This document shows positions 1,429 through 31,700 of a DNA stretch of 64,000 nucleotides, one piece after another. The DNA comes from Halocafeteria seosinensis (lineage: Eukaryota > Sar > Bigyra > Bicosoecida): assembly GCA_001687465.1 (NCBI GenBank), contig LVLI01000388.1, positions 45,365 to 109,364 on the forward strand, written 5' to 3'. The position numbers and the translations under genes are program-made. The notes beneath the pieces were generated by a model. That model saw only the letters and a list, made by a program, of their open reading frames with translations. It made no database searches and was not told where the DNA came from. Position 1 is the first letter of the stretch, and each line of letters opens with the position of its first letter.

Positions 1429-3655
1429 TCAAGAGTTGTGATCTCCTCTAGTGGGAAGCTGTCCAAATCTGGGGCTCTCAGATATCCACTGCAGCTCATC
1501 TAATGATACGGGGCAAAGGTCGGAGTATAACAAGCTTTGGTCCCCGTTCACACGTTTGCTTAAAGAGCCAACTTCACTGGTTTCCCCCTTGCCATCTTCT
1601 ACAGCAATCATAAATTCGTAGGCGGGGTTATAGTGAGTCTTCTTAAAGGGGCCTAACGGGCGCGAAGTAAAGTGCTCCTCGTCAAGGAATACTGAAAGTT
1701 CCTCCCGCGGCTTCTTTTGAGAACTTTCTTGGCTCTCTTCGACTGTGGATTCAGGCGACTGTCGTTTACCGGATCTTCCATGGTCAATTGCTGGAGAAGA
1801 GGCAGTGTGCTTTGCTACGTCTTCACTCACTACCGATCCAAGTCGCTTGCAAATGGCTCTCTCAACGTCATCCACCCGAGCACCGTATTCTCCAATATCA
1901 TGCTTGAGTTGAGATTTCGGAGAGACAGAGAACGCAGGCAACGAGGGAAACCGAGCGCGTCCGTTGGACGACAACTTTGCAGACATCGCGTACTGTGGAT
2001 AGTCATAGTTTCTGCCACTCCCAATACTCATTACTGTATCTCCCCGCTCCGCAACCCAAACAGCACCAGGCTGGCCAAGATGTGCTGCTGTATATCTCGA
2101 GTGACTTCTACCACGAACCCTCTCTAGCTTTGCTTCTCGGACAAACACAGAAAACTGCGACTCCCTATACCTTTGTTTTTGACTGTGCTGATGTTCCTTT
2201 TCATTCTCTATGTGATGCGCCGCAGAAGACATCTCCGCGCTGTTACCATTGCCTGCTTGAGCATTGGCGGAAGATGGGGGTTTGGAGCAGCCGCTTTCAT
2301 CTGGCTGGTCCGCAGAATCTGTATTGGTCGATGAGAGGACTCTCGCTTTTTCGTGGATGCTCTTGTATTTCTCCAAAATGTTTGCTGCTGATTCTGAGTC
2401 CAAACCTTGATGGTCACTGTAGTAAACATCCGCAGCAGTTAGCTTGTTTCCAGGTAGCACTTGTAGCGAGGAAGCAGTTTCTTTTCGATACTCTTTTGCC
2501 AGATCTACTAGCTTTTCTCCAGCACTTGTGGGATTCTGCTCAACCACCTGAACGGCATCGTCAACGGCTTTCCAAAGTACGTCTTCGTGAATGTCTTCCA
2601 AGCCTACATATTCCACAGTCTTCGTAGTTCTCCAAGGAGGAATCATCCCAAATAAAAAGCTTGGGACGGTACGGCTTGTTACTGGTTTCTCCTCGTGCTC
2701 TTTCAACATAAACTCAAAGCTGGCCTGAGACGGCAACTTATGTTTCTCAATGGTATTCGTGGATATCGTATAAAACGGCGCAATAATTGGGGACGAGAGG
2801 TTATTACGGGCGTGGTACTCTACTTGCAACTCCGGGCACTTCATGTTACAAGCATGAATCCATGACGAGTTAGCCGGTGATACTCCTTTCCATGCCACTA
2901 AGTATTCCAAGTGATTCTTCTGCGGAGTCGTATGAATACCGCGACTGTCTTCCTATCCAACAGAGTCATACACATGCTTACCTCAGTAAATCGGTGGCTT
3001 ATTATTCCGACTACCTCATGGCAATAATACACGATACCATCGCATCCATAAAATCCTCCTTCGACAGCAGCATGCTCAAGTGGCGTAGGAGCCGTAGTCT
3101 TCTTCAGTTCTTCTCGAGTAGCTTCTTTACCATGGCGCGCAACATGCTCAAAGATTCTCAGTCGCCTAAGGTGCACTTCGACATCATCTTGATACACCTT
3201 TTTACGAGGTCCTTTACGTGCCGGGGTGATTAACTTCCCTTTGTATCGCACCGTCCTTGAGGAATCAAGCCAATGAGCCAGTAGGTCCTGAATCCGTTGA
3301 ATCTCTTCCGGGGTCCCACGAATAGCCCCGGTGACAAATTGGTTTAACTTCTTTTCGCTGCAGGGCACATAGAAATATAGTCATGTGTTAAGAAACAGAC
3401 GAGACAGACAGAATGTTGAGAGCTGCAAGGCATGACGTGAGCTTACCTGAGGCCTAGCATGTCAGCCACCACCTTCAATGGCACCCCCGCTGCTTTGAGG
3501 GATCCTTTGACCTGCAATCATCATATTTCCCAAATAGAATAGAAAATGAAAAAAATGGAGTGAAATATGATGTCTAATGCACCCCATACGTCGTCTTGCA
3601 CTCTCTTGGAGATTTTCAGCCCTCCCGGCTGCTGTTGCACTTGGTTGGCCGCCAT
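1429..3655 (-). CDS. Chromodomain protein, likely chromatin reader
   Basis: Four exons join cleanly: 3655-3590, 3511-3447, 3357-2982 and 2919-1429, giving 665 residues from ATG at 3655 (MAANQVQQQPGG). A chromodomain lies at about residues 152-207 and spans the last intron: EVVGIISHRF, then EYLVAWKG, then the closing helix MKCPELQVEYH. Chromodomains bind methylated histone lysines through three aromatic residues. Here the tryptophan of AWKG is present, but the aromatic two positions after WKG is replaced (WKGVSP), and the usual TWEP is SWIH, so methyl-lysine binding may be weak or altered. A helical segment (residues about 23-75) precedes it. The rest is low-complexity, Ser/Glu-rich and probably disordered, with basic clusters. 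It is divergently paired with the USP gene. The family call is firm; the role is inferred. Confidence 0.8.
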
Positions 3656-3975
3656 ACTGCAGTGGTTCTATCCATCTATCCTTCATTAATAAATGAGGTT
3701 GTACCGTATCATCCAGGAACCTCGACGGGCCGACGACGGCACGACTGTACAAATCGACAAATTGCAGTACAATGTACAAACGACACTGTGAAGCAATTTG
3801 ACTTGAAGCCTTTTGTTGAATACCGGTATCATACCCGGCGGTATGCCTGGAGTTGACTGTTTGTTGCGCCACAGTTTCCTTGTCCATTTTAGTTTCCTCT
3901 TGATGGTCTGGCCATGACTCGGGAGAAACATTGTCTTCCTCCTCCTGGCATCCAATACACAGCTTGCTGGGGACC
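3656..3975. promoter_or_regulatory. Shared divergent promoter region
   Basis: This 320-bp gap separates the start codons of the chromodomain gene (-) and the ubiquitin protease gene (+), so it must hold both 5' UTRs and promoters. I see no clear TATA box or repeated site. Open frames on the minus strand here are shadows. Confidence 0.5.
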
Positions 3976-6900
3976 ATGCCGACAACACGTCGTAGTCTGA
4001 GGAAGCGCAGCTCTCCAGCGAAGCAAAATGGAGCTATTCGGGCTCATTCACCCACCAAGAAGCAGAAATCCAAGACACGGCGCTACCACCGTCGCCGCCC
4101 GAAAAGCAGTGAAGAGAATGTCAATGGAACGAGTTCTGGTCCGGCTATTATACCTCATGAAGGGGAGTTCAAAATCTGCCACCATTTTCAATGCATTCGG
4201 CGTGAACAAGTTGCTCCTGTGCTGTCCAGACCTCATAAATGGAGCTGCCAAGGTACGCTCGTTTGTGTCTCTATGTTTGCCTGAAAACCTCGGCGGCCCT
4301 CAACGGTGTCGATGCAGTCTGTTGCACCACCCAGGAAGTGTTCGTGTGCTTAACGTGTGGGCACCGAGGCTGCTCTCGAGGGGTCGATAAACACGCATAC
4401 GCCCACTTCGAAGAGCACCCGGATCATCCTCTGTCGATGCAAGTGCCAGGTGCGATTGTGTACTGCTACCAAGGTAAGCACCTGGAACTGCACCGGCTAT
4501 GGGGTTTATTGGAGGAATCTGGATTGGAGGTTTGCAGATGAGGAATGGGTACTACCGGATGCTGACAACAATCGGCATGACTTGACGCTATTACGGCAAA
4601 CCGTGTATATACTTGCGCAAGGAGCGGTGCCGTAAGTGCCAGTCGTTTTCTCTACACAACTGCTGCTTGCTTTGACGGTGCGTGTATCGTGTACAAACAG
4701 GGGAATGATCACAAGACGGGGGACGCAGTTCTCTTCGGACAAAAGTCTTGGCGTTTCTCAGCCATCTCTTGCTAGATTGCCATCGTGGGATGAAGGGGAG
4801 CAGAAGGTCGCTGGATCACCACAAGCGAGGAAAGGAGTCCTGCCAGGTCTCAGCCAGGCCGACTTAGACGAAGAAGTTGAGTCTGATCGTCTAGCTACGG
4901 CCAAACAGTGGCATCTATATCGCACTCTAGCAAGAGCATTTCTGGCTTGGCACTCGGGTGTCAAAAACAAATTTGACGAGAAAAGCCCATTCCCGGACGA
5001 AGCCGAATACATCTCCGAAGATGAAGACCAGGACCAGAAAAGAACTGATACCCAAGAAGAGATGGATTATCGTAGGTTTTACTTGTACCCAGAAGATGCG
5101 AGAGAATTAGATTTGTCCATCGCTGGCACCGTGTTTAACCTTCAAAAAGTTCCTGCTGTACTTCGGCACCATAAATCGAAGAAATACGGCGATTACTATA
5201 CCGATATACCGACGGTACGTTTTGCGCTTCGGATGACTAGTCTTGTGGATGTTTGAAGAAGAGAGTGTCCAAATTTGCAGGATTCGTCAATGAGTGCGCA
5301 GTTAGCGAGAAGGAGTACATTGCCGAAAGGGAGAACAGGTTTGAGGAATCTAGGTATGCCCGTCTTCGCTTTTGATTCATGTACCTATTTCTTGAGCGGA
5401 TCAGCTTTCTTGCTACAGGAAATACATGTTTCATCAATAGTGTTCTTCAGTGTTTACTTCATACGCGAATGTGGAGGAAGTATTTCTTGAAGCTTAAGCA
5501 ATTTACTTATCCCAGCAATGCTCCGTTTCCGTCCAGCGCATCCAGCAGTGAAGCGACAAGTTTCACGTGTACTTCCGACGGCGGAAATAGCAATACTTCG
5601 GCAAGTAGTATAGCTCATGCTACTCCAATGTTGTGGAGGCAAGATACGAGCGCGGTGTACTCTTACATGGAAAAACCTTCAAAGAAGAATACATTGGGAG
5701 AGGCCAGGGGTATCACTGAAGAGAAGGAATCCAGCATGGATGGTGGTACTGGGATCAGCTCTGGAGGTTCTGGAGCTCGAAGTGGGACGATACATTCTGT
5801 CGCTACTCGCTCGCCTTCGTTAGGACCGAGGCTTACCTTGACTCCCGCAAAGAATACTTACGAGAACGAGCCTATGAGTCCCTCGCCCTCTCCCTGGGGC
5901 CTAGATGATTTTCAGCTCGACGCACCAGCGCAAGATCAAGAGTCCCCTCATGGCACAACAGAACTTCATCGGCAGACTTCCTTTAGAGAACATCCTGACC
6001 GACAAGAAGGCCATGACAACAATGAGACTATGGTTGCTGGATTTATGTTCTACTCCAAGGATAGCACGCTTGGTGTCGAAATGAGTAACGTTGCACGCCT
6101 CCTCTGGTCAGGGAGATGGGCAGTGATAACGCCGTATGCCTTCATTGTTGTAAGTGCATCTATGGTTCAATCGTATATGATAGTGATTTTACGGAGCTGG
6201 AAATCTTGTTCGCAGACTGTGTGGCGTTTGCTTCCGCATTTTAAAGGCTACAACCAACAGGACGCTCAAGTATGTTTATACAAGAGTAATTCCGCGTGCC
6301 AGTTGGTCTGAATTTCTGAGCGCCGAAATGCAGGAATTTTTTGCTGCCCTCGTAGATTCGATGCATGAGGAAGCTATGCGTGGAGGAATTCCACAGGACA
6401 TTTATGAAAGCTTTCTCGAGAATTCAACAAATGACAATGCAAAACCAAATGGCTCTACGGAACTCCGAAGTAGCAGTGCCCTCCGTTCTCTACCAGCATT
6501 CCGTCCACCCAAGAAGGTAGGTAATACGAAGTCCAGTGGTCAGACGGCACAGCCTCAGGCGAAGACAAAACGATTAGGAGTAAGAGCATCCTCGATGAAA
6601 CGGGTGGGAGGAAAACGAAAAGAGGAGGAACCCCCGGCAACTCACCATGAAGGGCCGTTATTTTACCGATACCAACCGTCTGATCACGTGGCCACAACTG
6701 TGTGTGGGACGATGATAAACCGAATACAGTGCTCAAAGTGTCAGCATGAATCGACTCAAGAAGAACCGTTCTCGCATCTTAGTGTTGATGTTAGCGCCCC
6801 GCGCATCAAAGCCATGTCTAAAGGAGATTTGGAAGATTGCCTCCATGAAATGGTCCAACCCGAAGAGCTGAGTGGGGACAATGCCTACTACTGCTCTTCC

Positions 6901-7643
6901 TGCTGTGAATATGTGACGGCACACAAACAACGGATGCTCAACCGAGTTCCATATGTAAGGATTTCTTCATACTTGCTTCGACTCTTGGGAACCTTAGTGA
7001 TTGATCTTGAACTGCAGGTCCTAGTCATTCATGTCAACCGAGCACAATGGTCTCTGCAAGGTGCTAAAACCAAGATTGATAAATTTATTTCTGTAAGTCG
7101 TGTTTGATAAGTTAGTGGAGGCAGTTTACTTGACCTGTATGTGATTGAATGTCCTGCAGTACCCACTCGACGATTTTCGTCCCTACCGTTACGTTTATAG
7201 TGAAGCTCATCCTCCTTTAAACCAGGTGTCGGCGGATACCGGGGAATATCAGGACTCTAATGATGCTCCCCGCACACACAGACGCCGAGGATCAGTCTCC
7301 GCAGAAAGCGCTCAGTCCCTTTGGACTCCGGTAGAAGCGAAACAATTTACGGAGCTTCCTGAGTACAAATTGGTAGGACTGGTTGAGCACAGTGGGCGCG
7401 GAATCGATCGGGGTCACTACATCTCATTTTGTCGAGATCCCTTCCCTAGAGATGGTAGGTGAAGTCCTATTATCTGTGTCGGCCGCGACGACTGTGAGGA
7501 TGATTAGTGTTCCCGTTGCAGATACCTGGCATTTGTATAATGACCATCATGTAACCTTGGCTAGCACCGAGCAGGTTGCTCATACTCAGGCGTATATATT
7601 GTTTTACGAGCGCGTTGACAGCAGGAATTACCCAACTTGGTAG
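3976..7643 (+). CDS. Ubiquitin carboxyl-terminal hydrolase, ZnF-UBP USP
   Basis: This is a cysteine protease that removes ubiquitin from proteins. Eleven exons: 3976-4252, 4318-4473, 4538-4631, 4701-5214, 5281-5353, 5419-6149, 6216-6269, 6334-6954, 7018-7092, 7160-7454, 7522-7643; 1003 residues. A basic N-terminus (RRSLRKR) precedes a zinc-finger UBP domain at about 68-145 (CHHFQC, VCLTCGHRGC, then spaced His). The USP core starts at GLRNLGNTCFINSVLQCL with catalytic Cys about 375, continues with GYNQQDAQEFF, two CxxC pairs of the finger, and ends with catalytic His about 951 (GIDRGHYISF) and WHLYNDHHV. Two insertions, Ser-rich (about 390-600) and basic (about 670-740), enlarge the core. The ZnF-plus-USP layout resembles the USP3/16/22/45 group, several of which act on histones. 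All catalytic elements are present, so it is probably active. Confidence 0.92.
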
Positions 7644-7941
7644 CCTAGTGGTTGCGGGTAGTTCGAATTACCACAGGTTTCTTCCCTGTGGTACACAGCG
7701 GTAGAGGTAGAGACACAAACTCAGTCTCCCTACTATACACGTTGCGTATTCTCTTTAATGTATTTGAAAGTGAATACACCACCACAACGGTGAGTGGAAC
7801 TCCACTTGAACAAGAAAACTGTACGAGTAAGACTTAAGTTACTTAACCCTTTCCAAATTGATTATTAAATTCCACTTCACTGGATTGTTGACGAAATGAA
7901 TGTTTTTGAAATAGTTTGTATAAAGGAAAATAGTGGTAATA

Positions 7942-8553
7942 ATGGAGTACTTGAATACATTACAAAGTACGAGTGCTGAAGTTAATGCTTTAGGCGCTTT
8001 ACTGACCGATTCCAATGGGTTTACGATACAAGGTGCGCAGACTTACCTCCGTAATTTATTTTTTTTTTAAAGAGCTATCAATCCTCGTGCAGCATCGGGC
8101 GAATTACCGCTGGAGAGTGGCCCTTACATCCGATCGTTGTGTCAACGAGCGCATGCATTAGCGAAAACGACGGGGGAATCCACCAGTGGAGGCCCTCCCG
8201 TGGTGACTATCGAGACCAAGGACCGCCATATTACAGTCCGTTCCGTCGATGACCACGACCAACAGTACTCTCTGGCTCTCATCTCAGACGCGAACCAGGT
8301 GAATGCCCCATTGAAAGTGAAAAAACCAGCACATGACAGCCAATTGGACCATGGAGCCAAAGGCGCCTCGGGGGGCCAAGGAAGCCAGCATGAAGAAGGG
8401 GCCAATGAAGGCCCCAAGGCCACGTCGGATGAACATGATGAAGAGGATGACGAGCAGAATGAAGAGTATGCCGAACGAGAGGACCATCCTATGGAAGAGG
8501 ACGAAGAAGATGACGGCGGTGGCCATCATCGAAGAGGGGATTCTGAATACTGA
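7942..8553 (+). CDS. LAMTOR5/HBXIP-like Ragulator subunit with acidic tail
   Basis: Two exons, 7942-8032 and 8075-8553, give 189 residues. Residues 1-100 follow the small roadblock-type fold of LAMTOR5: a first helix, ALLTDSNGFTIQ (like the LCTDSQGL strand of the human protein), a long helix (PYIRSLCQRAHALAK), then strands PVVTIETKDRHITVRS and QQYSLALIS. LAMTOR5 is part of the Ragulator complex that anchors Rag GTPases and mTORC1 to lysosome-like membranes. Unlike typical LAMTOR5 (about 90-170 residues, no tail), this one has about 85 extra residues rich in Asp, Glu, Gly and His. The intron acceptor (AAAGAG) is not the usual CAG but sits after a T-run and gives the right phase. The homology rests on pattern, not a search. 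Confidence 0.72.
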
Positions 8554-8672
8554 AAGCCATAACACACTATGGTAGCTATATCATCAGAGGAGTGAATCAG
8601 GGTATGGGTACGAAATGTATACATGTGCTTGGAGTGCATTACAACTTGTCTCAATTATTGTTGTGAGCGTAT

Positions 8673-10937
8673 TCACACTTGTTGACCACTTACGCATAAC
8701 ATGCCTCGGGCCTTGGTATTTGGGTTGCCACCTGCACGTGGTAAAGGGGGAAGGGCATTGCCGCAACGTGTGTTTCCAGAGGCTTCTGAAAAATTGGGGT
8801 TCTTGCGGGGAGGGGCAGTTCGTTGCGGGGGAATCACCGACGTTATCTGACTCGAACTCGAGGAGATAATACCCTGTATTGCTGACTCTGCGCTGTTTTC
8901 ATCCAAAGCTGCTCGTGATGGTTGTTTTGGTTGCACTCTTCTTGGAGGTAACTGTCTTGATGTCGCGGGGATCTGTCGTGAGACCGTACCAGCCATGGTA
9001 GTAGAATTACCGCGGACAGTCATCAAACTAGGTAGAGTCTCCGGAGACTGCGTAGTATAGTCCTCCTTTTTGGACTTCCACTTCTGTGCTTGCGTTCGTC
9101 GAGTGAAACAATTTCTTTGTTGCTTCTCTTTAATTTGCTCCTTGGGTGCTGATAATGGTTTGGCACTTGGACGATGAGCATGGACGTGCTCTTCGTGAGA
9201 TCCAACTATGGAAGCTCCCCGAATGTCTAGTGATACGTCACTATGCTCTGTATTGGGTCGGTCAAAACTTGTACAATTCTCTTTATCAGAACCATTAGGA
9301 GAACTCGGTGACGAATTTGCCTTCTTCCGCCCTGCGATCCCAGGCACCGAAATTTAAGCAGGAACTATCCTAACCAAAACGTGGCTGGCACGTGCACATA
9401 CCGACAACGTTGGTGTTTAAGATCAATCCAGGCAGTATTACTTTGTGTTGACAACTAAGGGCGGGACATCTGTAATGTTTTCCCCGGAAATGATCTTCTA
9501 GACAATTCTGCGGATAAAAGAAAAAAAAAAAGCTAATCGACTGGAAGAAACTTGCCCAGAAGGACGAAAATAGTAGCTTACCTTATGGATAAGGTGATAA
9601 CACGGCAGCACACAACAGCCGGAATCATCCGTCACCAATAGTCGTACATTCATACCACAATGAACGCATGTCTGTTCGTCAAACCGCGTTGTGGCAGTCT
9701 TGAGTCTCGTTCCATCTTTCCGGCTCCACTGTTGGATACAGTTAGAAAGATATTGAAACAGCTCAGGAGATGAATTGATTCGATCCAGCTCCAAGAGTCT
9801 TTCGTAATCTTCATGGGTGATTTCTCTGTGCTCTAGTTCCTGTAGACTTTCGGGTAAAGGCTGCATATTGCTCGTTCCGTCACATTCTCGTGGAGCGGGG
9901 ATCCAAGCACAGTTGCCGGGCCGATCTTTCCGAACTATCGCATGGCCTTTGTGCCGACAACGATGGAAGCAACGACTGCAAAGGTCTGCTTCGTCGCATT
10001 CAATGCATCTATACCGGCATCCATATAATGGTTTTGTTCCACATTCGACACAAACAGTCCCAAAGTGCACGTTTTTGGGTTTCTTGCGGCTTTTCTCCTT
10101 GAGATCCTCTTGCAGTCTTCGAAGCACTTCGGGTGCTTCTCCCCATTCATGGCGGCAGAGCGGGCACGTAACGGCTTCATTGTGTGAATTGCGATGCTCT
10201 GCCCAAGCTTTCATGCACTTAACATGGGCATGCTTTTCACATGAATGGCAGAAGGTAAGGAACTCTTCGGGGATAATGTCAATCTGACAAATCGGGCACA
10301 CTTCCTCCGGGTCCAATTTCCGAACTGGCCGAGAACCTTTGCACACTGTCATGGGGTTTGCATCAATGTCTTCTTTTCTCTCTTTCTGATGCTGGTCACG
10401 CTCTTGCTGCTCCTGTTGTCGTTGTCTGCGTTCCTCGGCTAGGCGTTCCCGGTTGTCCGTCAAGTGTTGCAACTCCCGTTCGGAGAGAGACTGGTTCACA
10501 AGCACCGGGTCATTCTCTTCAAGCTGAAAGATGCGTACGAGGACAAAGACAATATGCAAGCATACTCCAAACTTGGAGTTTTTACACGAACAACACTTGG
10601 ACGGGGTCAATGAACTCAGAGTTACACGACTCGGTTTGTGTTCCTCTTCCGCGCGGACGACAAACGACAGAGGTCCTTGTTCCTTCAGCAGGAACAATCG
10701 GCAATTTCGCAGCTTCTCCATGACAATCTTCAGCATCTGTTTGGGAGTCATGTCGCTCTGTTTACCTCGTTTTCGCCTCCGTATCGTGCTCGAGGTATCC
10801 ACTTCACAAGCCTCATGATGACTGATTTGGTCCATTTCTGAACGGTCCGTTCCTCCTTGAGACCGCGCGCTGCCTTGGTTGCCAGGAATATCTCCATTTG
10901 AGGCACCAGTAGGGCCTCCAGAGGCAGCTGCCATCAT
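8673..10937 (-). CDS. E3 ubiquitin ligase, SWIM-RING-ZZ-RING (ZSWIM2/MEX type)
   Basis: Three exons, 10937-9582, 9507-9402 and 9331-8673, give 706 residues from the ATGATG at 10937. Domain order: SWIM zinc finger at about 114-130 (CCSCKNSKFGVCLH, CxCxnCxH); a coil rich in Gln, Glu and Arg (160-190); first RING at about 214-262 (CPICQ, HVKCMKAW, CPLC); a ZZ zinc finger at about 291-335 (CVECGTKPLYGCRYRC, DLCSRCF); a second RING-like finger at about 437-480 that spans the first intron (CVHCGMNV, CYHLIHK then NCLEDHF and RCPAL). This is the layout of ZSWIM2/MEX, a self-ubiquitinating E3 ligase. The remaining C-terminus of about 220 residues is Ser/Pro-rich and disordered. It converges with the LAMTOR5-like gene. 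Confidence 0.88.
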
Positions 10938-11229
10938 GCTTGGGGGTGTATCAATCTCGTAGCATGGAGAGACCGTTAAGCTCGCAGTGCACAACTTCAA
11001 CTACAGCTGATTTCGTCGTGAATGCCGCGCTCCATCAAGCCACAACCATTCTAAGACAATTATATATTTTGGTTCACATGTTTCATTCCTCCATACTAAG
11101 AAATAACTCCTTCTAAGCAGCAGAAAATAGTCCCAAGGGGAAAAGGCAACGAAAAGTTTGCACGCTTTTTGGCGGAAATAGACGATTGGAGACTCGTGGG
11201 GTTGTATATTGGCTGTTTAGGGTACAATC
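10938..11229. promoter_or_regulatory. Divergent promoter between ligase and PDZ genes
   Basis: The two start codons lie 292 bp apart and face away from each other, so the stretch must carry both promoters. It includes an AT-rich block near 11055-11110. No specific site could be assigned. Confidence 0.45.
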
Positions 11230-13730: not shown

Positions 13731-16700
13731 TTAAACGAACTCTTCCTCCATATGTTCGTCATGATTACTATCCCTGTAGGGGCGATCATTCAATCTCTGC
13801 GAGACCCTTCGCGCAACTCGTTCACCTTCTCGTAACAGTTCTGCGATTGACCAGTCGTCCTCGGATATGTAACTGTCCTCATCGGAAGGAGGGGCCGACT
13901 CGCTCCATCCATATCCCGGAAGAAACTTGTCTGGTTGTTCATCCTCTCCCATGCTCAACCTAACGTCACCAGGAACGTCATCTGTTTCAACGCCTATTTC
14001 AGCGACATTGCGGCTGTACGTTGCTGGGCCATTTTCTCCGGCGGATTTACCCGCCCTTAAGGCTCTTTCCTCGGCAGCAAGCTCATCCAATTCCTCAGGA
14101 CCAGCATAGCTGTCAGAATCATCTTCATCGCTCTCAAGCCAATTCGCATCCCAGTGCGACATTTCATGGGGTGCTTCCTGCTCGTCTTCAATACTCAATC
14201 TACTATCTGGTCTCGCTTCGTCAATTTCAAGCCGGGGAACAGCATCTCGTCTGTCGATATTCTTTCTCTTCGCTCTTATTAGCTTATGTCTCTCCCAAAG
14301 ACAACGCGTACGACACCACCAAGCAAAGTAATTTGTCCATACGGACTTAACTGTATGCTCTAAGCGATACAGCATCGCACCAATAAAACGCATTCCAAAA
14401 ATCAAAACGGTTAGACCGACAATGATCCAGGTGCCCCATTGGAAGACGTCATTCAGATTCACCATAGAAGCTACCATCCTGCAATGATTATCCAAGTGAG
14501 GAAGGGCAATATTAGAAGAAAGCAAGTACCTCCTCTTACCAGTTGGTGAGTAGCCAAAAGCTAAGGACCCGGGTGCGAAAGGCTGCGAATTCAGACGAGA
14601 CTGTCTCGTTCTCCTCTCGCAACTTCTTTTCCCGTCTGTAAAAGGATCGCGCAATAAATGAGATGTTACGAAAAGTCTCAACCAGACACTGCCATACTTA
14701 CTCCTTTATTTTACGTTCGACAGCCTCTTGCTGGGCGGCGACATACGCATCGTCGAGCATTTTCTGGGGGTCTTGAGGAGCTGAGTCCGTCCGTCCCCTT
14801 CTTGCCACACTGGACCTTTCATTCTCATTCTCACCCTCTTCGTTTCTATTGTCGCCTGTCGCAGGGTTATCATCAGCATAAAATTGTGCGTGCTGTAACT
14901 CCCGAATCCTCCCTTCCACCTCTTCTAAGATTTCGGACGCCCGTTTTCTCGGTTCACCTCCAACTTTAACGTCCATATTTCTCTTTATATCTCGTCGGGC
15001 TTGAAGCAGTAAGGCGTGCAAGTTTCCTTCTTGAAGCCGGTGGCTGATGTCGTTAAGATTGCAGAAGCTGTAGACTAGGAACAGATTGATATACGTTGGA
15101 AACATGAACGTATACTGCATGAAAGTGAAGGTCATTGCAAAAAAACTGCTGTTGACAACCGCAGCAACTATCAGCATACCAAGAGCTGAAGCCAAGCCCC
15201 ACACGAAAATTGGATTGAATGCCTCTTCTGCTGCTGACAGCAGGAAGAGTGCAAGCGCCACGTACATAAATGCACCATATATCAGAGAAGAGACAAGATA
15301 CACACGTTCAACGTCTTCCGCCCGAGAGGCAAGCGCAAATACAACCTGAAGGGCCAACGTTATCAGGTACACCAGGTGGAACCCAAATGTTATGATATCG
15401 GTTCCAAATCCTAATCCCGCTACGGCAGTCGTAAAGATGTAGAACATGGTCACGTACATCAGGGAAGGAGCAAACCATATGTAGAGAACATAGAACACGT
15501 GCATCAGCGATTGCACGCTCAATGCACATTTCCGGAAGAATGAGTGAGCGCTCCGCTGCCATAGAGCCTTCGCTCTCGAAAGGAAGTAAAAATAACCGAA
15601 AAAAGTACCACTGAGATAGCGGCGTCGAGATATAAGCAAGGGAACGAGTCCATTTGCTAGTTCTTGCTCCACGACCGCCCCTGCGGCATAATGAGTGGTC
15701 CAATTACTCTTGGACTTTGTAAGAACCTCGTAGGCTATGATACGGTCAACGGTAAGATATAAATTGGATAGGAAGGGTCCCAGCTTGTGCAGCCCCTCTT
15801 CCTCCACCTTAAAATATTGGTTCAGGGGCTCTCCTCTGATTGCCTCCCATCGGTATACTGTGAAACTGTTGCTAAATGGGACGACAAAGCCGGCAAACGA
15901 GTCAGCTTGTTTTTGCAATACATGTGACAACTTGTGTTCAAAAGTTTGGCTCGCTTCAGAGAAATTGTAAAGCCGCGCTGAGTAGGGACGAACTTCGCCC
16001 GCAGCTAGTCCAACCTGCGGATTGAGCTCCATGCTTTCGTACAGGTACCTAAACGCACCAGAAGTTGGGTATACACCTGGTGAGACTACAGTGATATACT
16101 TCGGCCTTATTTGACGAGCAAATCCACTAAATGACCACAAGTGCGAGTTTAGGACACCTCCAGTTTTTTCCTTAACCGAGACGATCATTTGGAGTGGTAG
16201 ATAATATTCGCGTTGCGTTATGTGACGAGCAATTTCGACCGTTCGCTCAAATATATGGCATGTTACTTCCATCCCCTTATGAATGCTCAATAGCATTTCA
16301 GGGTCCCAGATCTGTAGGTCGTGTCGCAGGTACTTGAGCACATCCTTGGGGATGCTGTTCCTTCCGTCAATTACTAGATTCACTACCGCTTGTTCCCATC
16401 GAACACCGGCCCGGTGTAATTCAGACAAATTCTCTGCTATACTCGCCAGCGTCCTGAAAGTAATATATCCGCAATGAAAAGCCGAAGCAATTGACATAAC
16501 CAACGGATGCGCTTACCTCTTCAAATGCTCCAGTGGTTCGTTATAATACGCCACACAGATAAAAAGCTCTATGTTCCGTCGCTGTCTCGTTATCCGCAGC
16601 AAAGTGCCTAAATTGCGGGGACGGCGGTTGATAGCCGGTGTATAGTCCAGTACTTTCATCTCTTCGATGTCTTGTTCATGACTTAACTCTGATGTACTAA

Positions 16701-19700
16701 ATTTCCGTCTGAGAAAGCTTGGTCCTCGGTTGTGCCTATATCTATGAGCTTCACTAGTGGCAGTTTCACCACTCTGCAAAGACTCGGTTTCCGTTTTGTT
16801 GTCTTCTGATTCATCATCTTCTTCCTTTCCGGGAGCTTGCAAGTTTGTATCAGCATTCCCTTCCTCGACAGGTGGTTCATGCGGAGCTCCTTGAAAGGCT
16901 TCGTCTTCGCGTGCGTTACGATCGACATTAGCTTTAGTCTCTCCATCGTCATTTGTTCCTTCCGCCTCCGGATATTCGTTTCTAACTTTTTTCTTTCGCC
17001 ATAGTGGCCTCATATCGGAATCCAACTTAAGCTTCCGATTGTCCCCTTTGTAGGAAAGCGGTAAGTTGGCCACCTCTTCTCCATGTTCACCCTGGTTATG
17101 CTTGTCTAGCTTCTCTGCCATACCTTCCGCAAGATCTTCTCCCTCATTGAGCCATTTTTCCAAGTCTGCCGAGTTACAGCTGCGTTCAGAAGACTCAGAG
17201 GCTCGTGATGAGTGTGGATACGCTTGCGGATCGGTACTATGTTGCCCTGAAGGGGCATGTTCGTGTGGGACACGACCATTTCGCTGAGTACCAATTTGTT
17301 CGTTGTTTGGTATTGCTGGTTTCCGAGATATTGCATCTGAATTGTGGACGGGAGTACCGGATGACCCTGGCTTATTCGTTTCAAGAATGCTCTTTCGATG
17401 CCCTGTAGTTTCTTCCCGTGTATCCTCGTCCCATCCAACGATTTTGGAAAAGCGCTTGCCGATTGCTTCCTGGTCATTGTCCGCACCCCCTTTCTGTTGA
17501 ATTAGTCCGTAACCGGTGTAGTTATCGTAATCATCAGGACCCCAGTTCCGTTCTTCTTCGAGGTCTTCGGCATTTACTTCTGACTCGATAGTGGAAGACT
17601 CCATATCATGTACCTGGCCTTGAATACGACCGAGATGACGTGCGTCCCTAACCTTCTTCTTCCGTTTCAGCAACTTCGTTATCTTGTGCCTATGCCAGCA
17701 ACACCGACAACAGCACCACCAGTGAAATGCGGAGTCCCATAAAGACTTTAGGGGGTCTTCAACCCTGAACCATAGAGCCCCTCCTAATCGGTACGCCATC
17801 TGGAACACAATCGCTCCAGTGATGAACCAGCCAAAGAGCGCGACAAGATCAAAACCCAGAACTAGCGCGGCAAATGCCCTGCAACAAAAGGCTTCCAACT
17901 GTATAAACCAAAACAGCATAAAAGCACTGTCACACATACCCATTACTAAATGCCCAGAGAGACACAAGCCGAGTCCTAAACGCAACAAATGTATTCTTGA
18001 GCTCTGCTTCTTCTTGGCGCATCTTCTCGCGTTTCCTGCACTCGAGTGTATGACCTGTTACTCGCACGAGGAGCGGCACATTGGCTAACACATACTCTTC
18101 AATTTGCCTCGCAAAACGCTCCTGTTCAACTCTCTCCACTTCCATATACATCTCATGGTGTACTGAACCCTGCTGGACTGCTGCGCCTACTTCTCCTTCG
18201 TATGCCTTCTTTTGCTTGTCGACATTCCGCACAACTTTTTCCAGATTCCGTATTCGTTTTAGTGTTTGATGATGAGCGGAGGCAAGCTCTTTGTCCCCGA
18301 GATCTTCTTTGTTAAACATGTTAACATCCGCACCTTTGTCCTGGATGTTATAGTGAGCTGCATCTCAAGTTTAGTAGTGTTAAGAAACAGATGGACACAG
18401 GCACAGAAATGTGGCCAGCGTACCTGCGGCGAGCTGCTGTCGGAGATTTCCCTCCCTGCAATAGCATCGTATAACGAAGGATGAAGGACTGTTGTAAGGC
18501 TCTAATGCACTAGCAATGTGTTCGAGTGCCTACTTTGTTCCCCATGACACATCGTGGAGATTCGTTAACGAATAGATTGTGAACATGTTCAGAAATGTCG
18601 GAAAAACGAACAAGTACTGTAAAACCAAATTGAGCGGGTGTACAAGCTGTAGCCAGCAGTTCTCAGCAGAAACACAACTAACCTGGAAGAAATTAGCTAA
18701 GATGGTTGGGAACCGGTTGAAGAGGAGTCCTGCGGCGAAGAAACTGCCAAACCCAACCAGAGATATAATTAGAATAGGGGTACTCAACCCCCGGCTAATG
18801 TGCCAAATGGACAGTCCAATGGAAATGAAAATAATAATCCCATAGAGAAGCGAGGATATGAGATAAATTCGCCGGACATCCGTTGGTTTAGAACCTAGAC
18901 CAAACAATATTTGCATCATGGTCAGAGCCAGGTAGATAGTGTAAAATCCCATGAGCAAACCAATCCGTGTTGATTCCGAAGACATTTGATCCACGGCTAT
19001 CCTGATAATGAGTACAAAACTCAAGAATAACAGCCCGACTCCAAGCCAATTGAAGATTAGAAGACTTATGTAGTAGAAAAACTGAAGGATCAAGAAGAAC
19101 CTCCGAGGAATTGAATGCCCGCTTCTAGAAAGCAGTTTCCAGAACTTGGAAACATAATAGATCAAGGAGAAAAATGAACCGTTTAGCCAACGTCGCCGTT
19201 GCTTCGTCAGCTCCAGGAGGGTCGTTGGGATGTCAGTAACAGCACCGGCTTCCTTGACAAACTTTAGCGTGTAATTGTATCCTTTCTTTGCCAGAATTTC
19301 AAAGGCCAAGATCCGGTCCTCTGCAACGACCACTGATAAAGTACCCACTATATATAGAAAGTGATGCGAACACAAATACTAACCTGCTAGATACATATTT
19401 GCAACGAATGGCCCCAAAGCGAGGGGGCTCTGCTCCTCAAGTCGAAAGTACTGAGAAAGTGGTTCTCCTTTGATAGCTTCCCACCGGTATGCCGAAAATG
19501 CACCGGGCAGTACCGACACATACCCGAACACGCTTTCCATTGGCTTTTCTAAAATGTGGCCGAGTTGATATTCAACGTTTTGAGCAGCTTGCAAGAGCTC
19601 TCCTAGGTCTGCCTTCTTTGCAAATATTTCCCCTGCAGCTCCTCCCACCTGAGGGTTCTCTTCAAATGCTCGATATAGGTAATACAACGAATCGCGAAAC

Positions 19701-21430
19701 GGCTCGGTGCCAACATCAAACAAGAAACAATATTTAGGCTGTATTTGGCGACAGAAGGCACTGAAGAACCAGAGATGCGAGTTCAATTTACCTCCGTTTG
19801 ACTCTTTCACAGCCAACAGTAACTGTAGGGGATGGTACTTGTCACCTTGCGAAGAAGATTTAGCAAGCTGTACGGTTTTCTCAAATATATGACACCTCGT
19901 CGAATGGCCTTTGTGCTCCGTCAGCAACAGCTCCTCGTCATACAAGAGCAGATCTGAAGCCAAATACTCTTTCATTGATTTACTCAGTTTGTGTCGTCCA
20001 TCTGCAACAAGGCAAACTAGGACAGATGTCCATTCTACTCCCATAGACTCCAGATAAGTTAGGTTAGGGGCAAGACCTCTCAGGGTATTTCGTAAGTCTT
20101 CCGCCTCTTCATTGAAAAGAGTAACGCAGATAACAATCTTGATTTCTCGGCCGAGACGAGTCGTTCTAATGGGAGTGTGCAAGTCAATCGGTCGAATGTT
20201 TATAGCCGGCGTGTAGTCAACAGTCCGAAATTCTTCACTAGCTTCCATGTAGCCGAACTCTTCAGTAGATAGCTCTTTTCTCAAGAAGCTGTGGCCCCGA
20301 ATCAGTGCGACGGGGAGTTCCTCCTCCTCCGACTCCTCCTCTGCTTCGTCTTCATTCGACTCCTTGTCGTGTTCGCTGTCAGTAGAAGAGTCCTTCCGAG
20401 CAGCGAGCGGTTGTTCTTCCTCTTGCTCGCTTTCGCTATCATGAGCTGCTAGTTCCAGGTTAACCGTCGAGTCACGATGTTCGGCAGGAACGTGATTATC
20501 TTCCACCAACGAGGGACCATTCAAGGCCGGTTCGCCTACCTCGCCACTACGCTCTTCATGGTATATTCCGTACAGCTGAGACGTCTTATCGTTTTCGGAA
20601 CCGATGTTCCTATCATTTGTGTGGGTGCTTTCTAAAGGAGCTTTCCCTGCCGTGCCTTGGTGAGTATGGGATTTATCCTCCCATTCCGTGGCGCGCTGGC
20701 TGCCGACTTTGTTGAGGGGCTCCATCGCTTTACATCGGAAAGACGAACCATGTGTACCCTCAGCTGCATCGTCACGCTGTTGCTGATTCCCCTTAGGAGC
20801 CGACGCTCCGCCGTCAGTTTCGTAACCCCTCTTAGGGCTCGAGGCGGTTGCAACGCTATTCCCATGGCTTTCAAGCCGGTTATCGGTAGTCAGTGGTCTT
20901 TTATATTCACTACTATGCTGGACGTCTGGGGACCGTGAGGAAGATGAAATGGAATCTGTCCGTATAACTCCATGGTCTGTCTTCCGGCGTCCCCCGACTT
21001 TTGGAGTGCTTCGAACAGCCTGAATGCCACCTCCGTTCAGTTCACCCACATCGCCTCGCCGCTGAGACGTTGTTGGAGAATGCACAGTGGTGCTCTCGTC
21101 ATTTTGTTGAGTCTTCGATGAAGCAGCCCTCGTTGGGTTTCGTTCGAGTTCTTCATAAGTCACCTGGGAGCTGCGCCCGCCAATCATGACCGACCCAAGG
21201 TCATCCTCGAGTACATCTGCATCTCCCTCTTCGTCATTGTCAGTCGCGTAACTGTCGTGGCTACCATCAATGTCCTCGGGAAAGGCATCATAATTGAGCT
21301 CTGCCTCCTCCTCTTCTTCGTCCGTCTGCCGCCGCCGCAAGTTCTCCCGTTCAGTACTCCGAGCAGGAGGAGCAGGTCCAGGAACCTCTTGCGCCCCTTT
21401 CTGCTGATCCTTAGATTGCTGTGTTCCCAT
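13731..21430 (-). CDS. Tandem double chitin synthase, 2391 residues
   Basis: Chitin synthase links GlcNAc from UDP-GlcNAc and extrudes the chain across the plasma membrane. Nine exons: 21430-19384, 19320-18683, 18616-18534, 18455-18424, 18357-17940, 17878-16517, 16453-14702, 14635-14540, 14478-13731. Unit 1: acidic N-terminus, YTPAINIRP, GT2 core from about 431 (VICVTLFNEE, VADGR, LFDVGTEP, GGAAGEI), EDR about 683, QRRRW about 722, membrane helices, SWGTK, coil, the family's FRTRLVSLW helix near 1060, further membrane segments, acidic linker. Unit 2 repeats all of this from about 1450 (SFLRRKFST, FICVAYYNEP about 1514) to the end. Exon 17878-16517 is one open frame running from the unit 1 tail into the unit 2 core, so this is one protein. 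Unit 1 keeps every catalytic motif. In unit 2, DVGT is SPGV, EDR is VDR, QRRRW is SRRRY and SWGTK is SHRLQ. It begins MGTQQSK, a possible myristoylation site. A 5' UTR intron may end just before the ATG. Confidence 0.9.
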
Positions 21431-25268: not shown

Positions 25269-28125
25269 TCATTCGGGATCATGGTGAAGAAATGTGTACA
25301 GCTCATTGGAATGTATCTTGCCAATTAATTTCTCCAAGGTCGCTTTGCTCAAGGTACACAATTCCGCAAGAGAGTCTACAACGCCCAGTATCTTGCCGCT
25401 ATTTGCTGCATTGACTCCCGGAAGAGACAATAGAATGTCGATCGCTGTCAAATTTCTATTATCTTCAGTGGACTTTTCGGTGTCCTCTGACTCGACCGCA
25501 TCCGTTTCATCCCCACGAATACTAGATTGAACTGCAGCATTCGCATCTGGTTCCTCCTGCTTCTCCTTAAGCAACGAAAACGTGTCCACTGTAGCATGGG
25601 GTGACCGTGTCCATATCAACCTGAGTGTTGGGAACGTCTGAACCAATTGGACTATTCGTGAGTGCACATGGTGACCGATTATCTCGTCCGGAATGGCACG
25701 TTCATTGACAAGACCAAAAGCTTTGTCAGATTCCCATTCAATTAGGAGAAGGGGCTTTTTGTAGTTTCTTGTCATAGCAGTCCCCTGGGTGAGCAGTCGA
25801 CCAGAAGCCAGAGAACCGAACAAATCAGACACACTCTTCCGCTCAACACAAATCTCCGGTGACAGAATGTAGTCACCTACTTCAAGGGTAATTGGAAGAA
25901 TTTCAAGACCTGCTTGATGTAATAAGGATGGCAGCTTCGACCTAAACTCTCTCATATCCACCAATATCTTTTTAGGAAGCTCGACATTCTGTGAACGGGA
26001 ACTGACCAAACGACTGTCTCCAGAGGCAGCTCGTACGAATAGATCGTCCCACATATCTTCTTCGTCTTTATGACCTTTTCTGGAGGTTTTACCTTTCGAG
26101 CTGCCATGATCAAATATGCCATCCCCAGGTGCTTTGTTGCGCCTGACATTGTCTTCCGGCGTCCCAGCGGGAATGGTCATGTGAGCCTTTGTCTGGATAA
26201 GCTTTTCAAAAGCCTCTTGCTCGGTCCTAAGAGATGCTAAATAACAGTGTTCCTCTACAGACTTTTCATATAAAAGAAAATACACTCGAAGAGGTCTAAT
26301 ACCTAACACTTCCGCTTTGTATACCTGCATGTGGGACACAAACATTCGAGGAAGAAGAGAATGGAAGCGTAGCTTTACAAGACTTACCTCGATCAGCCGT
26401 ACAAATGACGGCGTCGGATCATATAGTATGAGAAAAGTAGGGCGTAATTCCTTTATCAAATCAAGTCCACTTTCAACCGATACTACAGTTACATTAAGAC
26501 GGGAGAGAGCTTCGGCAATATACGAAACATCCCCTTCAGGAACAGTTTGTTCATCCGCAGCCGTCTCTGCATCCGCATCCCCAGCCGCATCCCACAATAA
26601 AGTTTGCTCCAAGGACACGTAAAGCGCCTCCTTCCGATCAGGATCATAATAAGCCTTTCTCAGTTGCTCTGTTCTCCTTCGGTTATTCTTTAGAAATTCA
26701 TACCATCTGGAGCGAAGAAAAGCTGAAGGTCCACTGCTTATAAGACGAGATAGTTGCCGAGCGGCGGTCCTGTCTTCACACGCAATGACAACAGTAGAGC
26801 CGTAATTTTCATCCGGACACTCGGAGCTGTTGCTTATCTCATGCCATTGCTCTTTGACTTCTTGCAGCACTTCAAACAGAACTCTCCACTTGCCATTATG
26901 CTCCAACGTTACATGTAGGCGTTTACTATCTTCATCTATATGGTACATTCGGCGACGCGCAGCGTAAAATACTTTTTCCGCCGCGTCAGTATAGAGCCAG
27001 GGAGATGGGTGATTTTGGTACACCCCCGCCTTCCGTACACTCTGAAGGTATAAGAAAAATGAAACGGCATCAAAGTGCGCCAAGTAGAACAGCAGTTCTC
27101 TAAGCGTTCGCAAGTCGGTAACAAGCTGTTTTGCGTTCTGCGACATCTTGTTCCATAAGGGATCCAGGAGCCGCCGCAACCGAGAGTCAAACGAGCCAAA
27201 TAAATTGTTCTCTACAGTAAGTTCCGTCAAATCGACGGACACCATTCTGCAAGCGAATTACAACAGCATGATGATGACATCCCTGGAAAAGGTTCAGTCT
27301 TATACGTAGCTTTACTTACTTCCTTAACTCCGTGATACAAGTATCCATTGCATCGATAACACAACGTTGAATATGATGTTGTCCATTCGATAAAGGTTGG
27401 GATATTTCAATTACTTCTGGAGGATTCTTCTCTAGCTCCTTGCTTACCGATACATGGAATCTCGGCCACAACATTAATTTTCTCACATGTAAGGCCCGAA
27501 GAACTTTCTCGAGCTTATTAAACCCAGATGCTAGAGACACGGGGTTGTCGGAGAAGGCTTTCACAAACCCCTCCGGATGCTTCTGCCGGAAAATACGAAG
27601 AATAAAGCCTTCCGAAGAAGTGTCCGACACGAGATGGGCATTATACACGAGTATTCCGCTAACTTGCGTGGGATCAAGTCTTTCCGTCAAAAAGTCCACA
27701 ATGCAAATCCGTGAAGTGATTAATATACATCGAGCCGTCTCGTATATAGTCTTTCTTTCGCTTACACTACTGACGTCACTTGTGATGACCGATGGCAACA
27801 TGGACGGAAGCAGTCCTTCAGCTAGAAGCGCCTCCTTCCATGCTTCAGCTAGATGCGTTGCATTCAACACCAAAATCGTCCCCTGTTTGCTACTGGGTTT
27901 ACTTCTCTTGTGGGAAGCTCTGCTGCCAGAAGGCACAGAGGAAGAGCTGGCTTGACGTGTTTCTTGAAGCGATGATGATGAACTACTACTGGTGGTTCTC
28001 GTCCCCGCATAGAAACCTAGAAAACGACGTACAATGGCCTCTATCCCCAATCCTGGCGCCATGACCACCAAACCATCCTGGCGGAGCAGGTCGCTGAATA
28101 TGGAGTCGTGGAATTCCAGAGACAT
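25269..28125 (-). CDS. ERCC4: XPF/ERCC4/Rad1 structure-specific endonuclease subunit
   Basis: XPF pairs with ERCC1 and cuts damaged DNA on the 5' side during nucleotide excision repair. Exons 28125-27320, 27246-26388 and 26324-25269 give 906 residues. The N-terminal half is the inactive SF2 helicase-like region (EFHDSIFSDLLRQDGLVVMAPG, ILITSRICIVDFLTERL). The middle keeps the typical FVRLIEVYKAE and PLRVYFLLYEKSVEE. The nuclease has GDYILSPEICVERKSVSDL, holding the catalytic GDxnERKxxxD with ERK at about 716-718, then LLLIEWESD. A helix-hairpin-helix pair closes the protein (LLSLPGVNAANSGKIL, 846-880). The third intron is 63 bp and in frame, so an unspliced form would still be open. Removing it restores the conserved IEVYKAE. 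Ser-rich and acidic insertions sit at about 46-75 and 810-840. Confidence 0.93.
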
Positions 28126-28790: not shown

Positions 28791-31700
28791 ATGGTGGAAA
28801 TCTTAGTCATTCAGCGAGCAAGGCGCTCCAATTGGCCCTATATGATGCTTTTGAGCCTTATGTTGGGGATATTTGAAGCCTCATTGTCTCATGCGCAAGA
28901 GTTGGATGCTACTCCATCGACAACGACGACTCCGAGTCCGGGAACTCTAGCTCTGCCAGCAGTGTCCAAAACGCCTACCGTCACTCCCACACCTTCGGTC
29001 ACACCGAATCCGGTGTCTGCCCAAGATGTTCCCGGTATTTTCGGAGACTTGGCGCCGCCTAATATGTTCTTCTTCTGGTCGGCCCTACTCGCAGTGTTTG
29101 TGGTGCTCTTCAGCCATTCAGGAAGTGCAATCTTGGCAAAAGTTCTGGCGTTCGTGTTGAATTTTACCGTCCTCATGAACCAAGGAGGTAAGCATTTCCT
29201 CTCGTTATTCCAAAGCAAGCATGTGCGCTCGAATGTATACTTACTTCGCATTCTTACTTTTCCTCGCTTTCCACGGTCCGTTTTTGCAGAAATCAACATT
29301 GGAAGTATCCAGGTATCGCTTCTTGGTGGAAAAGTGTTTGTTTACAATATCCAGTATCTGGATAACAGCGTTTGCGCTCGCATCGTCTCATTGGTAAGTA
29401 TTTGCTGAAGTGAACGTGGTATTGTAAATACTTATCATGCACAATATTGCAGGTCATATATATTCCCTGGTGGACGAGGGAAATCCACACCACACCAGCA
29501 ACTGTGGGAAAGTTTCAGAGGCTCTCTCATAGAGTTGAGGTGATGATCGAAGGATTTGAGTTGATAATCTTAAATAGCTCTTCGGCGTATCAGAATATTG
29601 GCAAGCTGTACGAAGCTATGGGCCAGACCGATAAATCCCCCTCCGACAGGAGGGAAGAGTTCAAGAAGGATGATTTTTTTGACCGTACTCAACTCCTAGA
29701 GAATAAATTCCTGCAGACATGGTTCAATACTGGTCCCAGCACTGGAGATATTCGCAACCCCGCAGCACCAGATAAGTCCATCGTTCACTGGTTACTGCGC
29801 TTCGCTCCGGTTTCCCATGTCTGCATCCAGACAGGGTCGATTCTCGTGGGGAACCCCTTATTGCCTACGATACTTGTGACATCTTGGAAGGAAAGCAACA
29901 CCCTGGCGTTTGCTGGTAGGTGCCCAATCTCAAACCAGGCTGATGCTGGTGTGTATCGTTTCCATTTAAACACGAAATTTGAGTCAATCACGTCTTGGTT
30001 TGCCCTTAATTCTCGCTATAACGGCGATTTAGGAACTGTCAGGTCCCAAACTCAATGGGCTGTAGAGTCAATTCGACACCGATTTCACGGGGTTAGACAA
30101 GCGGTCGACGATGCTATCGGGTCGGCCAACGACAGCACAACGGATCCAACGGATAGTGAACTCGATGATTTGTCAAGGCGGAAGGCGCGGCAGATGAAAA
30201 CTCAAAAGCGGCGTGACTGGTACCGACGCACCGCTGGTGCCAGAGCACGTATGGGGCATCGCTCGGAGAGTATTGCCCAGGGAGGAGCTGCACGAGTCGA
30301 AATTGCAGACAATCCAGAGTTAGAGCGTGGAGGCCGTCTTGACAAAGTTTTAGAAGTATTGAGGAGGCGCCAACGATGTGACGAAGACTCACAACTCCTT
30401 TCGTGCTCCTCGCTTCATGTAGACTTCTACGCTGATGTCCAAGGGCATCAATCCTTAAAGGTCCGCAATAGAAAAAAACAAACTACTGACAGGCTGTTAG
30501 CAGATCTGAATTTTCACATACAAATCGGAGACGAAAATGAGCGACAGTTGGAACGCGAGTGTATATTTCAGTATGGACCCTGGCACGACCGGCAACTAAA
30601 GCTGCTGCAGTACTTCTACTTTCCAATTACCCCTGAAGACCAACCTACCGAGTTGCCGGATGGAGCCAGGCGGACATGGCTGGCCATACACTTTCGAGCT
30701 TTGTCTAAACTTCGATTGAAGATCCCCTTCATTAAGCGCACCATTGGATCCCCTAATCCCCTATTTGGAGAAGCGGCAAAAAAATGCAACATCGAACATA
30801 GCGAACAGGCACCGCAAAGCCTTGAGGAAGTACTACGTTTTGTTCAAGACAACCAAACGCAGACAAGTTGTATCCCGAAGGAAGTCCGAGAGGTCTTTAG
30901 TGCGGAGCGGACGAAAATGAATGAGAGGAAATCGAGCACGGGGAATGAAGCAAGCGTCTTCGAGGATAAAGGACCCACGACCAATGAATTTTTCCAGTTC
31001 ATGGCTGAGAATTCTAGCCCGAAAAATGAAGCGATTGCTCGTGGAGCAACACTCGATTGGTTTGAACTGACAATTTATGGCAATTCGGAGTATGATTCAT
31101 TGCCTCTCAAAGGCTGCACTACGTTTGAGGGGTACGCAGACAAGCTAATGGGCTCATTGGGAGGTACCAGCCTGGAGTTTGAAAACCTAGGCGCTTACGA
31201 AGCTTGTTCAAGCGAGCCTATTTTCGAATTACAGAAGGCAAGCTTCATCAACGCTCATCGGTACCCAGTAGAATGGAATGGCACACAGCACATTGCTAAC
31301 CGGGTTGTCTTAGAAAGCGGGTACGGCGTCCTTGGAGGTGATGAAATATTGCGAATACGGGAGTGGATTCGGTCGTGGGGCGCGTTGTATGAAGCCCCTT
31401 GGCTTCCGCACGGAGCGACAGCGTACTCTCGTAATCCATTCCAAGCAGAAAGCGGAAAAGCTTTGCATCTTCCTTATTTCAGTTACATGGAGATTAGGTG
31501 CTCATGTATGCGATTCCGCTTGTTTGCGAACCCAGACAATGTCGAAGGCTATCCAATCCAACAGAAGGACTCGCCTATGGTCATCCTGGAATCGGAGGAG
31601 TTAGTATACTCGAGTAGTAGTTATTCGAGTCCCTCGACATCAGAATCCGGGAAAACGCCGAAACCCGATGAGCAGAGCACATTCAGAGATTTTCCTGGAG

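Follow-up and report, generated by a model that had tools for sequence, protein, structure and literature searches.

We describe here a minus-strand gene (21430 to 13731) in a 64,000-nucleotide (nt) stretch of Halocafeteria seosinensis contig LVLI01000388.1, hereafter the window, in whose coordinates all positions are given unless another contig is named. The gene encodes two chitin synthase units head to tail in a single polypeptide. The fusion is real: one gene carries both units, as the preliminary description of this DNA had claimed, and the same join recurs elsewhere in the genome and in the product of a transcript. That description also held both synthases to be complete, and here only the presence of two cores in one frame stands, most of the catalytic motifs of the second unit having been lost. 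Very probably, unit 1 is active-like and unit 2 catalytically dead but conserved. Our preferred reading, to which we give a probability of about 0.6, is that an active glycosyltransferase family 2 (GT2) chitin synthase has been covalently fused to a pseudo-synthase that acts as its silent dimer partner. The sequence itself shows the single frame, the repeated architecture, the motif loss in unit 2, the compatibility of its fold and purifying selection upon it.

The second unit keeps the fold but not the catalytic motifs

Both units were aligned to PsChs1 (Phytophthora sojae Chs1) and are read here in its residue numbering. The sections of the PsChs1 report drawn on here define nine motifs (TMYNE, DGR, KASKL, DVGT, QHFEY, VLPGA, EDR, QRKRW and SWG) and describe mutants within them: activity is fully lost on mutation of Asp291 or Asp382 and abolished by P454A or W742A, around 95% of it is lost in E495A, mutants of E432, Y433, R536 and W539 are greatly impaired, and Asp496 is the general base (PMC9556331). 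The core of unit 1 (residues 405–922; 18536–20218, split by introns) has recognisable versions of all nine, namely TLFNE, DGR, NGGKL, DVGT, QNVEY, VLPGA, EDR, QRRRW and SWG, with the NGGKL variant being common to P0006, P0007 and P0015 in our numbered protein collection. The corresponding series in the core of unit 2 (residues 1464–1978; 15040–16647, also intron-split) is AYYNE, DGR, TGGVL, SPGV, QTFEH, PFSNS, VDR, SRRRY and SHR. Thus SPGVYP replaces DVGT (16066–16083), PFSNS the VLPGA gate (15865–15879), VDRIIAYE the EDR....E motif (15727–15750), SRRRY the QRRRW motif (15616–15630) and SHRLQEG the SWGTKEG motif (15025–15045). Unit 2 accordingly departs from the catalytic D, D, (E)D, Q(Q/R)XRW signature of chitin synthases as well as from the gate.

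Much of this loss is general to the family. Six unit-2 sequences were compared, from the window, three further tandem loci named after their contigs (C371, C167b and C539) and the proteins P0003 and P0004, and K358, P454, E495, Q535, W539 and G743 are missing from every one. PsChs1 is inactivated or crippled by single mutations at residues that unit 2 lacks, and the pair therefore looks like one active and one inactive synthase rather than the two active ones first proposed. The 119 other synthases used as controls (P0002 and P0006–P0123) all retain E495 and D496, and D291, D382, P454, Q535, W539 and W742 are each found in 118 of them. The single miss is a gap at D291 and at W742, whilst at the other four positions it is P0012, a 1164-residue protein from a metagenome contig with the changes D382Q, P454S, R497E, Q535A and W539Y. 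Judged by these substitutions P0012 is likely to be another pseudo-chitin-synthase, and since it falls outside the unit-2 clade, it suggests that catalysis has been lost more than once in the group of chitin synthases to which P0012 and unit 2 belong.

Evidence that unit 2 is nonetheless built as a chitin synthase comes from profile and structure comparisons. Both units match Chitin_synth_1 (PF01644), with 131.9 bits for unit 1 and 93.5 bits for unit 2 at a curated cut-off of 25, and their best matches in a sequence search of solved chitin synthases score 375 and 265 bits, respectively. For unit 2 the top match is the PsChs1 E495A mutant, by a margin over the wild type of less than 1 bit. The predicted structure of unit 2 is that of the chitin synthase fold.

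Selection on the second unit and its likely role

Unit 2 is under purifying selection: the proportion of non-synonymous differences (pN) is 0.21–0.37, that of synonymous differences (pS) is saturated, and there are no stops in 600 codons. The distribution of the conserved positions differs between the units. Across three sequences of each, the fraction of invariant columns in unit 1 is 0.87 in the motifs and 0.42 in the remainder, whilst in unit 2 the two values are 0.37 and 0.36. The largest loss of conservation in unit 2 is at PsChs1 positions 483–557, from EDR to QRKRW (0.65 to 0.27), and the largest gain at positions 597–683 (0.33 to 0.57), which by hydrophobic segments run approximately from the end of transmembrane helix 1 (TM1) to TM3. 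Constraint on unit 2 has shifted from the catalytic centre to TM1–TM3, a region that includes a known dimer contact. In the parts of the structural reports consulted, TM2 packs on TM5 of the opposite protomer in PsChs1 (PMC9556331), and the equivalent helices, TMH2 and TMH5, contribute to the dimer of yeast Chs1 (PMC10409773).

Unit 1 would polymerise UDP-GlcNAc and extrude chitin, with unit 2 packing on it through TM1–TM3 in place of the second protomer of a homodimer. Unit 2 would stabilise, position or regulate unit 1 with no chain synthesis of its own and, because unit 2 would make no chain, each covalent pair would produce one chitin chain and not two. A scaffold role for unit 2 appears to us to fit better than that of a sensor. 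The preliminary description had thought a covalent dimer attractive, and a covalent pair is supported as a reading, an intramolecular dimer being what we infer from it.

Several observations weigh against an active synthase with a silent partner. Residue 496, the general base, is Asp or Glu in all six unit-2 sequences, D291 is kept in all six, D382 in three and W742 in two, so that certain copies may still bind nucleotides or have some activity. The structure model of unit 2 was built with an alignment rich in active synthases. The gain in conservation at positions 597–683 was reached in 0.64% of 5000 block shuffles, in a test that sets three sequences against three and uses a 75-column window picked post hoc from the conservation table. 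A transcript was found for a paralogue and not for the window gene itself. The trees of the two units also disagree, that of unit 1 pairing the window with C371 (95/86) and that of unit 2 pairing it with C167b (93/84), and exchange between tandem copies is possible. Finally, we looked for a conserved swapping loop specific to unit 2, such as might act in the manner of that of yeast Chs1, and did not find one: the cytosolic swapping loop has 26 conserved columns of 138 in unit 2 and 24 of 144 in unit 1 (with the 20 intron-derived residues described below retained in the window unit 1) and so is conserved no more strongly in unit 2, leaving a regulatory loop unsupported.

The retained residues are also the basis for an alternative in which unit 2 is changed and not dead, serving as a sensor of UDP-GlcNAc or another sugar nucleotide, or as a transferase of a different sugar, and so controlling or modifying the product of unit 1. 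S361, R497 and R538 are kept in all six unit-2 sequences alongside D291 and the acidic residue at 496, half of them have D382, and the strong purifying selection would suit such a function. Against it stand the six residues lost from every copy and the further loss of D382 from the window copy and P0003. The motif columns of unit 2 are moreover conserved to the same degree as its other columns, which is unlike a new active site at the place of the old one. We regard this alternative as unlikely.

The tandem is a single gene

The units are joined by an exon that was correctly described at the outset: 17878–16517 is a single open exon of 1362 bp connecting the C-terminal membrane pair of unit 1 with the SFLRRKFST, YTPAIN and FICVAYYNEP motifs at the start of unit 2. 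A search of the H. seosinensis genome (30.6 Mb in 605 contigs, the window included) revealed both cores in tandem at two further loci, on C371 and at about 24.5–30.6 kb of C167 (C167b), and a fourth, partial tandem on C539, where the contig ends within unit 1. An open linker exon joins the units at all four loci, and the arrangement of a motif-bearing first core and a motif-less second core is common to the window, C371 and C167b and is seen in part at C539. Evidence at the level of expression comes from P0001, a public protein of 2326 residues that is predicted from transcript GECG01007496, is marked complete and contains both cores. End to end, 2298 of its 2326 residues are identical to C371.

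An error of assembly or annotation is disfavoured for the tandem family by these further copies and by the transcript product that spans the C371 pair. The idea that two separate, adjacent genes have been merged by the gene model, or two loci mis-assembled, can draw on the missing window transcript and on the possibility of an internal end in the linker. It has to contend with the open linker exons and the complete product, and with the order of the unit-1 and unit-2 clades being maintained within the pairs, and we consider it very improbable. The possibility of a genome error, raised with the first description, is answered in the same way: this is not a mis-join.

When 123 collected proteins and the window protein were scanned, a duplicated core was found only in P0001 and the window. 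A profile of the whole tandem gave 512 matches, and among the 120 listed only P0001 was covered over both units. Candidates scored in the protein searches numbered 7673, 7999 and 8000, the latter two sets being limited to those with most words in common. In a scan of viral contigs with a unit-2 profile, 45 stretches matched by pattern and none was confirmed by tblastn. No published description of a double, tandem, dual or inactive chitin synthase was found among open-licence PMC papers, where the listed matches of a broader query, judged by title and the start of the abstract, mostly concerned chitin synthase genes of insects.

The preliminary description had nine exons joined in phase to 2391 residues with no stops, the eight introns being all GT–AG and of 61–78 bp. 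The in-phase join holds, but comparison with the paralogues revises the gene to ten exons, nine introns (60–78 bp) and 2371 residues. The segment formerly read as one exon, 18357–17940, conceals a GT–AG intron of 60 bp (18095–18036; GTATGT...GTGCAG) that was taken for exon by eye because it is in frame and free of stops. The 20 residues that it would encode are absent from the transcript-supported P0001, which has a phase-2 intron at this place, and the matching stretch carries in-frame stops at C167b and C539, so that splicing there is obligatory.

In the revised model (all features on the minus strand) exon 1 (19384–21430) carries the start codon, a disordered N-terminus and the GT domain of unit 1 as far as the first base of the EDR Glu codon. 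Exon 2 (18683–19320) encodes EDR, QRRRW and TM1–TM4 of unit 1, exon 3 (18534–18616) continues to SWGT and is followed by exon 4 (18424–18455), and exon 5 (18096–18357) covers the cytosolic loop. The C-terminal membrane pair of unit 1 begins in exon 6 (17940–18035). Exon 7, the linker exon (16517–17878), holds the end of unit 1 with its acidic tail, the inter-unit linker (residues 1173–1436; 16729–17520) and, from unit 2, the N-terminal motif and the first strand of the GT domain. The bulk of the unit 2 GT domain and its TM1–TM4 lie in exon 8 (14702–16453); exon 9 (14540–14635) is the counterpart of exon 6, and exon 10 (13731–14478) encodes the C-terminal membrane pair of unit 2, an acidic tail and the stop codon.

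Comparison with known chitin synthases

Chitin synthases with solved structures pair as dimers, according to the portions of the two structural reports used here, from which the comparisons with PsChs1 and the fungal enzymes in this paragraph are also taken (PMC9556331, PMC10409773). PsChs1 (PDB 7wjm and related) shares the GT2 fold, and both units find their nearest solved structures in it. It dimerises through TM2, TM5 and a swapped N-terminus, and has a single catalytic unit per chain, two active protomers and an N-terminal MIT subdomain (PMC9556331), in contrast to the window protein, which has two units per chain, no catalytic motifs in the second and no MIT match. Saccharomyces cerevisiae Chs1 (PDB 8k3p and related) and Candida albicans Chs2 (7stl and related) likewise have the same fold, but their dimers consist of chains with one unit each and their loop starts with a conserved WGTKG, where the window unit 2 has HRLQEG; in yeast Chs1 the dimer forms through TMH2 and TMH5, and a protomer's swapping loop acts on its partner's GT domain (PMC10409773). 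The nearest named protein to the tandem family in our tree, the chitin synthase-like FNF31_00155 of Cafeteria roenbergensis (P0006), has its motifs intact, but in 1609 residues there is only one synthase core.

Neither half of the window protein gave a match to the MIT domain (PF04212) at E up to 0.1, and an identity as an oomycete MIT-type synthase was rejected on this ground. There was likewise no match to Chitin_synth_1N (PF08407) at E up to 0.1, a domain present in many of the fungal matches among those listed in the whole-tandem profile search.

That both units are active, as a covalent dimer making two parallel chains, was the first view taken of this gene. As folds the two cores are complete, and each matches Chitin_synth_1, but the window unit 2 lacks D382, P454, E495, Q535, W539 and W742, and in the mutants reported in the sections drawn on above, losing any one of D382, P454 and W742 is enough to abolish PsChs1 activity (PMC9556331). 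We hold this to be highly improbable.

Origin of the tandem

In our tree the sequences of unit 1 and those of unit 2 each make up a clade with support of 100/100; the two clades are sisters at 95/95 and lie near P0005 and P0006, the latter from C. roenbergensis. In approximately unbiased (AU) tests, with groups defined only after the tree had been seen, placing unit 2 as sister to the free-standing pseudo-synthase described below gave p = 0.021 and placing it outside unit 1, P0005 and P0006 gave p = 0.040, whilst a grouping of unit 1 with P0005 was not rejected (p = 0.32). The free-standing protein has a long branch (1.77) and its placement is therefore unsure.

Gene structure also connects the units. 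An exon of 96 nt with both ends in phase 2 occupies the equivalent place in each (18035–17940 and 14635–14540), P0001 has intron pairs 32 residues apart in both (949.67/981.67 and 2061.67/2093.67), and similar segments close unit 1 (SADLEKWLNEGEDLAEGMAEKL; 17107–17172) and unit 2 (DWSIAELLREGERVARRVSQRL; 13791–13856). The simplest history would be a head-to-tail duplication of a whole gene, in which an ancestral, intron-bearing synthase gene was copied, the first stop was lost and the final exon of copy 1 became continuous with the first of copy 2. Unit 2 would then have lost catalysis, with the tandem multiplying afterwards. That unit 2 is a useless, decaying remnant carried along by the fusion might be thought from its missing motifs and long stem branch (0.69, against 0.22 for unit 1), but is scarcely credible in view of the selection and the absence of stops noted above, the region better conserved than in unit 1 and the intact unit-2-like frames on other contigs.

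Other loci in the genome and window

The free-standing pseudo-synthase (C167a; L019) shares contig C167 with the C167b tandem and lies at about 1190–8900 on the plus strand, both ends being approximate. It is a single-unit synthase without catalytic motifs (DCGV, DQR, FRRPH and SPTSG). A 3653-codon open frame (C167:9691–20650, plus strand) lies between it and the tandem. A synthase of one unit in which every motif can be recognised is found at about 67.5–69.5 kb of C143 (L024; minus strand) in a 1494-amino-acid open frame, with P0020 as a close relative, and a chitin synthase fragment in a 175-amino-acid open frame at C64:15689–16066 (L025; minus strand) represents either a gene remnant or a highly split gene. 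Chitin_synth_2 (PF03142) scores over its cut-off, with no PF01644 match, at three places on C56 and on C467, C150, C310, C371 (at 40647) and C133. The PF03142 model also finds matches in 4 of 14 control genomes, and these loci may be other GT2 enzymes.

Within the window, 29414–41485 (plus strand) is open over 4024 codons in one frame, for which Pfam gave no match at E up to 0.001. The neighbours at 25272–27257 and 9498–11000, both on the minus strand, encode a protein with an ERCC4 domain and one with a ZZ zinc finger that also matches RING weakly, and a link to chitin is not obvious. Elsewhere, an ectoine-hydroxylase-like gene at C210:71950–72872 (minus strand) offers a hint of a halophile, TIGR02408 scoring 289 bits in a frame with one TGA and 33.6 bits in another at a cut-off of 336.5. 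Six P2X-like matches lie on three contigs, one of them above the cut-off, against 13 P2X genes in the published account (PMC5447177). Read with that account, the ectoine-hydroxylase-like gene, the P2X-like matches and the Cafeteria protein as nearest named relative suggest H. seosinensis (Bicosoecida) as the source, on which the results for the tandem gene do not hinge.

Implications

Active glycosyltransferases assembled with a partner that is itself almost or wholly inactive are known in EXT1/EXT2 and GAUT1/GAUT7. These pairs belong to other GT families and are made of separate polypeptides, and they are not chitin synthases. We suggest, tentatively, that the tandem might be the first covalent, obligate pair of an active and a pseudo chitin synthase, in which a two-chain homodimer would have become an asymmetric one-chain machine with the second protomer serving only as scaffold or regulator. 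Several tandem versions are kept in the one genome, with a free-standing pseudo-synthase beside one of them.

The tandem bears on the role of dimerisation in chitin synthases. In the parts of the reports consulted, the protomers of PsChs1 work independently, with a Hill coefficient of 1 (PMC9556331), and in yeast Chs1 each protomer is proposed to be restrained by a loop of its partner (PMC10409773). A natural enzyme that keeps a partner without the partner's chemistry would separate the structural role of that partner from catalysis, in one chain open to cutting, mutation and imaging. If our reading is true, chitin synthases would be a further enzyme family in which pseudoenzyme partners are conserved, and each pair would be predicted to make one chain, not two.

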